A DNA stretch of 34,391 bases from a virus, in IMG/VR virus record IMGVR_UViG_3300048538_000090, positions 1 through 34,391 of that record; one strand, 5' to 3'. Both the position numbers and the translations under genes were made by a program. The stretch's first letter is position 1. Each line of letters opens with the position of its first letter. The notes below the pieces were generated by a model. That model did not search any database, was not told the DNA's origin, and was given only the letters and a program-made list of their open reading frames with translations. Shown here piece after piece: positions 2,457 through 3,414 of the stretch.

Positions 2457-2656
2457 TTTTCACTCCCTAAAAAATACTTAGCAATGCGTTTACCATCTTT
2501 GGTTTTGACAGTAACCATTTTGATCTTATACCCGATGTTTCTAAGATCGTGGATTCGTGCAGCCAAGCGCAAACACCCGTATTTATTAAGTGCTTCCAAT
2601 GCAGTTATTGGCTTACGGTGTAGGTGTTTCAGAATTGCAGTGCATTGATTGTTCAT
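2453..2656 (-). CDS. Small winged-HTH-like phage protein
   Basis: The 67-residue protein has the layout of a small helix-turn-helix domain common in phage early regions. Helix one is around ILKHLHRKPITALEAL, followed by NKYGCLRLAARIHDLRNIGY, where the second and third helices lie, and then a beta wing ending in a basic tail. It resembles the HTH_39 type of domain in which an A-x-R-I-x-D-L-R motif forms the recognition helix. It overlaps the methyltransferase stop by four bases and is read just after it. A role in local regulation or DNA binding is likely; no target can be named. Confidence 0.8.
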   Translation of the reverse strand: MNNQCTAILKHLHRKPITALEALNKYGCLRLAARIHDLRNIGYKIKMVTVKTKDGKRIAKYFLGSEK

Positions 2657-3414
2657 ACGTCACCCTCTAGTTTTATTAATTGACTTACTATTAGCTGCGG
2701 AATTTCAGGCACCACAGCGTTGCCTAAACATCTAATTCGGTGTGATCTATTGGGAATCCCATTAACCACTCTACAAACTGCGGGTTCAGTCTGCCATCTT
2801 CCCCGCGATACTCTATCGCATCGGGTAATGAATTGGTGTCGGCGTTGCGGCCTTTGGCTGCTAGCGTTTCCGGTCTTACTGCCCCCTTCCAATCCCGTGC
2901 GGCTGGGGTAGGCAATAATCCACACCCGCTCCCTGCGGTGTGGCGCTCCAACGGTGCTAGCTGATATGCAATGCCATTCTGCATCGTACCCGATTTGGGC
3001 CAAGTCATTGAGTATTCGCCCGAACCAGCGCCCTGAGTCTCCAACCAAGAGATTTGGCACGTTTTCCAAGATTGCGTATCGTGGTCTAACTTCGCCAATA
3101 AGACGCGATAGTTCTCTCCAAAGCCCTGTTCTTGCTCCGTCAGTTCCCTGTCGCTCTCCCCAGACGTATCCAACCGCAGAGGCATCTTGGCACGGGAAGC
3201 CTCCGGTGATGCAATCGACTCTAACTCCGTCTGTAGCCAATCGCTCTGCTGTAAGGGTTTGTATGTCTTCATATACCGGCACCTCGGGCCAATTTTTATT
3301 GAGCACCTTGATCGCGTAAGGGTCGATTTCGCAAAAGGCAACGGTCTTGCAGCCGACTGCCTCCATACCTAACGTAAACCCACCAATACCAGCAAAGGTA
3401 TCCAAGACGTTCAT
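2653..3414 (-). CDS. dcm: DNA C5-cytosine methyltransferase (phage orphan type)
   Basis: The 253-residue protein has all core C5-methyltransferase motifs. Motif I is DTFAGIGGFTLGME (5-18, AdoMet site). Motif IV is GGFPCQD with nucleophile Cys75. Motif VI is ENV (117-119), motif VIII lies around RRERVWIIAY (160-169), and motif X is GNAVVP (231-236). The stretch between VIII and IX is short, so target recognition is minimal. No restriction nuclease is adjacent, so it is probably an orphan enzyme that protects phage DNA or affects expression. The ribosome site is weak. The start follows inverted repeats at 3449-3485 that may control it. A second ORF lies inside this gene in another frame. Confidence 0.95.
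   Translation of the reverse strand: MNVLDTFAGIGGFTLGMEAVGCKTVAFCEIDPYAIKVLNKNWPEVPVYEDIQTLTAERLATDGVRVDCITGGFPCQDASAVGYVWGERQGTDGARTGLWRELSRLIGEVRPRYAILENVPNLLVGDSGRWFGRILNDLAQIGYDAEWHCISASTVGAPHRRERVWIIAYPSRTGLEGGSKTGNASSQRPQRRHQFITRCDRVSRGRWQTEPAVCRVVNGIPNRSHRIRCLGNAVVPEIPQLIVSQLIKLEGDV
2724..3272 (-). CDS. Overlapping ORF inside the methyltransferase gene
   Basis: A second frame, offset +1 from the methyltransferase, is open without a stop for 182 codons from ATG 3272. GAGGTG lies 7 bases before that ATG, a good ribosome site. The open frame extends further up to a TTG at 3341. The product starts MKTYKPLQQSDWLQTE and contains SWKT (68-71), WPKSGTMQNGIAYQL (91-105), LLPTPAARDWKG (119-130) and LNPQFVEWLMGFP (162-174). 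From memory these motifs, in this order, occur in phage proteins annotated as methyltransferase-related and encoded separately. Against it: the conserved methyltransferase codons could create the same pattern as a shadow. Biochemical function is unknown. Confidence 0.55.
   Translation of the reverse strand: MKTYKPLQQSDWLQTELESIASPEASRAKMPLRLDTSGESDRELTEQEQGFGENYRVLLAKLDHDTQSWKTCQISWLETQGAGSGEYSMTWPKSGTMQNGIAYQLAPLERHTAGSGCGLLPTPAARDWKGAVRPETLAAKGRNADTNSLPDAIEYRGEDGRLNPQFVEWLMGFPIDHTELDV

Follow-up and report, generated by a model that had tools for sequence, protein, structure and literature searches.

A phage C5-cytosine methyltransferase gene appears to encode a second protein, with motif IX and probable target-recognition modules, in a nested frame

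Comparison of a phage C5-cytosine methyltransferase gene with its relatives supports the view that the +1 frame inside the gene encodes a second protein, and that both frames are under selection. In our reading, which we hold with good confidence, the two products would be the two chains of a single C5-cytosine methyltransferase specified by the same DNA, the outer chain (alpha) carrying motifs I-VIII and X and the nested chain (beta) a variable module and motif IX, and would assemble into the active enzyme. The same-DNA, two-frame arrangement occurs in hundreds of viral and bacterial loci, usually with only one of the frames annotated.

The locus

The window, i.e. the whole 34,391-nt stretch analysed here (IMG/VR record IMGVR_UViG_3300048538_000090), is phage DNA, with genes for a terminase, holin, endolysin, Erf annealing protein and exonuclease; the Erf-like annealing protein and exonuclease genes form a recombination module at 1265-2456, immediately downstream of the methyltransferase. 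The beta ORF lies wholly within the C5-cytosine methyltransferase gene (Table 1), and 214 open codons lie between the stops that bound the +1 frame. Re-reading of the sequence bore out the nested frame, coordinates and motifs given in the preliminary description (ATG at 3272, GAGGTG 7 nt upstream, 182-aa product), and the placement of SRAKM opposite FPCQD and of EWLMGFP opposite VVNGIPNR was correct in both cases. The alpha protein matches PF00145 with E=1.5e-47, over residues 1-179 only, and falls into PHROG_363 (E=4e-71), while the 182-aa beta protein falls into PHROG_1008 (E=3e-26) and yielded no match in the comparison with Pfam and NCBIfam.

Table 1. Coordinates of the outer gene, the nested gene and their component features in the window
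Feature	Position	Strand	Description and basis
alpha (outer gene)	2653..3414	(-)	253 aa, C5-cytosine methyltransferase catalytic subunit, motifs I-VIII and X
beta (nested +1-frame gene)	2724..3272	(-)	182 aa, probable target-recognition and motif IX subunit
beta start ATG; beta stop TAG	3270-3272; 2724-2726	(-)	sequence
GAGGTG, Shine-Dalgarno-like	3280..3285	(-)	7 nt upstream of beta ATG
beta N-terminal region (SWKT, TWPKSGTM, YQLAPL)	2919..3272	(-)	opposite alpha motifs IV-VIII; constraint on both frames
beta variable module (LLPTPAARDWKG...)	2790..2918	(-)	probable target-recognition domain; beta-frame conservation, module swapping and stacking
motif IX in beta frame (LNPQFVEWLMGFPID)	2745..2789	(-)	profile match to outer-frame motif IX of relatives
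alpha passenger linker, residues 172-222, between motifs VIII and X	2749..2901	(-)	low identity and low pLDDT
motif X (LGNAVVP), alpha frame only	2707..2727	(-)	starts at the end of beta; silent-site divergence

Division of the enzyme between the two frames

Catalytic motifs I, IV (PCQ), VI (ENV) and VIII of alpha are invariant or nearly so in set A3. The sequence match between alpha and M.HhaI spans residues 3-171 only, and the AlphaFold2 model of alpha has pLDDT values mostly above 90 at residues 1-170, below 50 for most of residues 174-222, and about 90 at residues 230-250, the segment in which motif X lies. The best Foldseek match of this model was M.HhaI (E=4e-16, 169 columns), covering the catalytic part. 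From the AlphaFold2 model, alpha is predicted to consist of the catalytic core and motif X joined by a disordered linker. Alpha thus has the catalytic motifs of the C5 methyltransferases (PF00145), but motif IX and the variable region are absent from this chain. We do not regard the locus as coding for a single-chain enzyme, because it is the +1 frame that encodes motif IX and the modules, and the PF00145 and M.HhaI matches end at residues 179 and 171, respectively.

The C-terminal end of beta reads LNPQFVEWLMGFP. Relatives are found in which LNPxWVEWLMGFP lies in the outer frame and is followed by LGNAVVP, and the profile of nested beta ends matches the outer-frame RLNPDWVEWLMGFP in four loci (L138, L140, L168 and L252), in each of which the outer-frame motif IX is succeeded, in the same frame, by LGNAVVP, i.e. 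motif X; in L138 and L140 the PF00145 match extends to profile positions 322-323 of 324. The +1-frame motif is motif IX, since its profile matches the outer-frame motif IX that precedes motif X in these relatives. The identities of the modules and of motifs IX and X are likewise fixed by such relatives, in which the outer frame carries motif IX as well as motif X, and by actinobacterial ones, in which modules, motif IX and motif X share one frame. In the same four loci, the nested product ends after the modules, representing a form between nested and fused.

Protein-level conservation in the module zone follows the nested frame. Identity within 529 module pairs is 0.81 when they are read in beta, as against 0.47 in alpha and 0.48 in the third frame, which is unused, and substitutions amount to 0.155, 0.104 and 0.447 at beta codon positions 1, 2 and 3, respectively. 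These pairs were picked by nucleotide similarity (blastn), and pairs picked by blastp agree with them, which, together with the retrieval of relatives through the outer frame only, takes care of ascertainment bias. Judging from the substitution pattern, beta is the coding frame under protein-level selection in this zone, and alpha is a passenger.

Searches with the beta sequence against solved structures gave chance antibody matches only, the AlphaFold2 prediction for beta alone was poor (pLDDT 55.5), and comparison of this low-confidence model with the folds of solved structures returned no match; the assignment of beta as the small domain is therefore based on position, motif IX and evolution.

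The preliminary description had suggested that the family of the +1 product probably arose by overprinting of dcm. A new, unrelated and functionally independent protein, for instance a regulator or an anti-restriction factor superimposed on a complete, self-sufficient methyltransferase, appears unlikely. It would accord with the lack of resemblance of the beta N-terminal region to any solved protein, and with the persistence of this region in the +1 frame in actinophage genes whose modules and motifs IX and X are in the outer frame; indeed, it is kept in +1 in every beta-bearing architecture. The outer frame, however, is incomplete, having no motif IX and a module zone that shows no conservation at the protein level, and the +1 product carries the very motif that is missing. 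Beta, then, is the part that the outer frame lacks, namely motif IX and the variable modules.

Selection on both frames

We collected 80 relatives by the alpha protein alone, which makes the sampling blind to the +1 frame. A long +1 ORF is kept in all 80, with a mean of 214 codons vs 81 codons after synonymous shuffling and 50 codons in the +2 frame, and its length is significant at p<=0.01 in each of the 80 (300 synonymous shuffles per gene). Control PF00145 loci were drawn from gammaproteobacterial genomes: the +1 ORF measures 229 codons vs 104 shuffled in the 21 loci with a beta match, and 79.1 vs 78.8, i.e. no excess, in the 29 loci without it. The open +1 frame is thus a trait of the nested class, and not of C5 methyltransferases in general, as these 29 canonical controls demonstrate.

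Silent sites were analysed in 1304 moderately divergent pairs drawn from 71 distinct relatives. Third-position divergence of alpha is 0.48-0.59 upstream of position 3272, falls to 0.03 at the codon containing the beta ATG, averages 0.20 opposite the beta N-terminal region and 0.10 opposite motif IX, and is back to 0.44-0.68 starting with the first codon after the beta stop. With codons for conserved residues only, mean silent divergence is 0.54 upstream, 0.20 in the beta N-terminal region (median for conserved alpha codons, 0.11), 0.05 at motif IX and 0.50 downstream. The difference between sites inside and outside beta has a Mann-Whitney p=1.5e-12, which is indicative only, because the sequence pairs are not independent. 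Dual-frame selection therefore has exact boundaries, at the beta ATG and at the beta stop. The start signal is itself conserved: the ATG is present at this site in 66 of the 71 relatives, and an SD-like motif upstream of it in 56 of the 71, with a mean of 28 and a maximum of 39 in the shuffles for either feature. The proposal of a second protein in the +1 frame of the methyltransferase, with both frames selected, is upheld by the 80 relatives, the 29 controls and the silent-site boundaries, as are its two corollaries, avoidance of stops in the +1 frame of dcm relatives and extra constraint on the synonymous sites of the methyltransferase.

The same boundaries bear on programmed frameshifting, by which ribosomes would pass between the nested and outer frames to yield a single chain with motifs I-VIII, module and motif IX. 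The order of domains on the DNA is that of a single-chain enzyme, and single-chain fusions do occur in relatives, but we consider frameshifting quite improbable, given the sudden onset of constraint at an ATG that is conserved and preceded by an SD-like sequence, and the conservation of the beta frame upstream of motif VIII as well; moreover, two shifts would be needed, because motif X remains in the outer frame. The notion that the +1 frame is untranslated and open by chance, or merely through methyltransferase conservation, codon bias or RNA structure, a general possibility wherever two frames share DNA, is rejected as extremely improbable, being contradicted by the synonymous shuffles and canonical controls, by a constraint bounded by the beta ATG and stop, and by the third-position substitutions of beta across the module zone, in which alpha shows no conservation.

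Recognition modules and their exchange

Each beta contains from one to six WPTPxAxD modules, and whole modules differ between genes in the zone between motifs VIII and IX. As a descriptive measure only, since pairs and genes are related, 72 module pairs are at least 75% identical between genes with alpha less than 55% identical, 146 module pairs occupy different positions in their arrays, and, of the 779 gene pairs whose alpha proteins reach 85% identity or more, 521 have no module in common. The WPTPxAxD modules are very probably target-recognition modules: the pattern of swapping fits the behaviour of target-recognition domains and suggests that the modules may determine specificity.

Relatives, architectures and annotation

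In a wider set of about 330 loci, which includes repeats of the same DNA and comprises 246 distinct module zones, about 296 are nested, motif IX belongs to the alpha ORF in 17, another 12 reach beyond alpha, and a few are incomplete or odd. Nesting, which had been expected to be rare, is thus the rule. An alpha-frame ORF covers the beta match in all 171 loci first tested, and in the set of about 330 alpha is absent only at two contig-edge fragments and one 80-codon remnant. The remnant (L216, 2971-3210) contains a module and motif IX, with alpha absent nearby, and has probably decayed.

It had been suggested that the +1 product belongs to a stand-alone family of phage proteins with the same motifs. 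Separately annotated proteins of this type do exist, as PHROG_1008 and as CDS features in four records, but they are not stand-alone: in these cases the nested frame was called in place of the methyltransferase. Searches of viral and genome contigs with the single beta protein and with a 54-row profile found no stand-alone homologues, and a stand-alone overprinted family is rejected on the strength of the 171 loci and of the wider set of about 330, with its three exceptions, mentioned above. The public records of Rctr197k, mycobacteriophage XFactor, Vibrio 1.236.O and Stenotrophomonas SOVA965 annotate the beta frame, whereas other records annotate alpha; CDS features in the beta frame, with the catalytic frame omitted, are seen in L012 (1510-2010), L003 (1435-2115), L007 (1369-2097) and L008 (1279-1977), and in SOVA965 the nested frame itself is named DNA-cytosine methyltransferase.

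Actinophages exhibit further arrangements. In ShiLan and Phasih, motif VIII is succeeded in a single frame by LLPTPxASD modules, LxPxFxEWMMGxP and a motif X of the LGNGVVPQQ type. A different layout occurs in Upyo, Jumbo, Heather and Camerico, where alpha ends past motif VIII and a +1 chain that begins inside alpha holds the modules and motifs IX and X. The ShiLan and Phasih loci (L174 and L178) have WPTP-type modules in both frames, some in +1 and the later ones, with motifs IX and X, in the outer frame.

Among bacteria, a beta-like match is carried by 15 of 369 gammaproteobacterial genomes. One Roseovarius genome has five copies of a beta-bearing methyltransferase (L234, L235, L237, L238 and L239), and the gammaproteobacterial genome G048 has twelve C5 methyltransferase matches.

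Proposed mechanism and origin

In single-chain enzymes such as M.HhaI, the small DNA-recognising domain lies between motifs VIII and X. In the two-chain enzyme proposed here, alpha would provide the AdoMet-binding and catalytic motifs I-VIII together with the C-terminal motif X, and the small DNA-recognising domain would be supplied by beta. Translation of beta would start at an internal ATG served by a separate ribosome-binding site, and the chain would consist of an N-terminal segment of no recognised fold, a target-recognition module that can be swapped, and motif IX. The split of motifs between the chains and the analogy with M.EcoHK31I (see below) suggest that alpha and beta would assemble into one enzyme, for which both would be needed. 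By analogy with known phage methyltransferases, the phage may modify specific sites in its DNA and thereby shield it from cleavage by host restriction enzymes; a change in the modules, whether by exchange or by stacking, would then alter the sites protected.

As to origin, the part of beta comprising the module and motif IX is probably ancestral coding sequence, and the outer frame there would be secondary. Only the N-terminal part of beta, opposite motifs IV-VIII, looks overprinted on older sequence, because elsewhere beta is the selected frame and alpha the passenger. It seems to us reasonably likely that the locus represents a large class of C5 methyltransferases, of phages and bacteria, with a specificity subunit in a nested frame, containing one to six exchangeable modules, and that nested, split-overlapping and fused forms arose as the module and motifs IX and X changed frames; phages would retune their methylation by swaps in the hidden frame, the outer frame tolerating any linker.

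Three aspects appear to be new: the scale of the phenomenon, the coding of recognition modules by the nested frame, and the series of relatives in which parts have switched frames. We found no report of the nested class in phages in the open-licence literature, which constitutes weak evidence, coverage being partial. To our knowledge, few long nested gene pairs on the same strand have been firmly documented in bacteria and phages; the alpha/beta pair offers hundreds of loci, a constraint bounded by the nested start and stop, and an obvious functional reason for its existence. The identity of beta explains PHROG_1008 and many phage proteins labelled as hypothetical or mislabelled, and implies that most annotations lack half of each such enzyme; a methyltransferase cloned from its annotated frame only is predicted to seem inactive. 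If modules set specificity, phage methylation patterns would be readable from the hidden frame. The nested, split and fused relatives also provide a series in nature that illustrates how a domain can pass from one reading frame to another.

Comparison with known systems

In M.EcoHK31I, the gene for the larger chain contains, in another frame, the coding sequence of the smaller one (about 176 aa), and methylation requires both; the smaller chain of the window locus is likewise placed in another frame within the larger gene. M.EcoHK31I (YGGCCR) is a two-polypeptide C5 methyltransferase (Lee, Kam and Shaw 1995, as summarised in PMC3404938), with motifs I-VIII and X on the larger chain, motif IX only on the smaller chain, and a recognition domain predicted in the larger subunit (PMC3404938). 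As compared by this description, the division of motifs is the same in the window, but the variable modules of the window are in the nested frame, where the outer frame is a passenger, in contrast to the larger chain predicted for M.EcoHK31I. In addition, M.EcoHK31I belongs to a restriction-modification system, whereas no restriction gene was recognised among the ten window ORFs scanned. Plasmid searches for M.EcoHK31I-like genes yielded no enterobacterial relative, and none of the 15 beta-matching genomes among the 369 gammaproteobacterial ones was tied to EcoHK31I.

M.AquI (CYCGRG), a two-subunit C5 methyltransferase with motif X on the small chain (PMC3404938), is split between motifs VIII and IX, and the same division is found in the actinophages Upyo, Jumbo, Heather and Camerico, in which beta consists of modules, motif IX and motif X. 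The window locus differs from it in having motif X in the outer frame and beta fully nested, so that its small chain has motif IX without X. An out-of-frame HNH endonuclease is hidden in the ShiLan methylase (PMC11855218), and is thus also an overlapping frame in a phage methylase, but it is a homing insertion in the third frame; we rejected it as a counterpart of beta, being a different element unrelated to it. PHROG_1008 and PHROG_363 are separate families, both labelled DNA methyltransferase, and their relation as two frames of one locus is unstated in the library.

Multispecific phage C5 methyltransferases with several target-recognition domains are known from Trautner and colleagues (reference listed in PMC12707154). 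In contrast to these single-chain enzymes, the modules of the nested class are in a different frame from the catalytic motifs; as in the multispecific phage enzymes, several swappable modules, here one to six, lie between motifs VIII and IX, and the nested class may be multispecific too.
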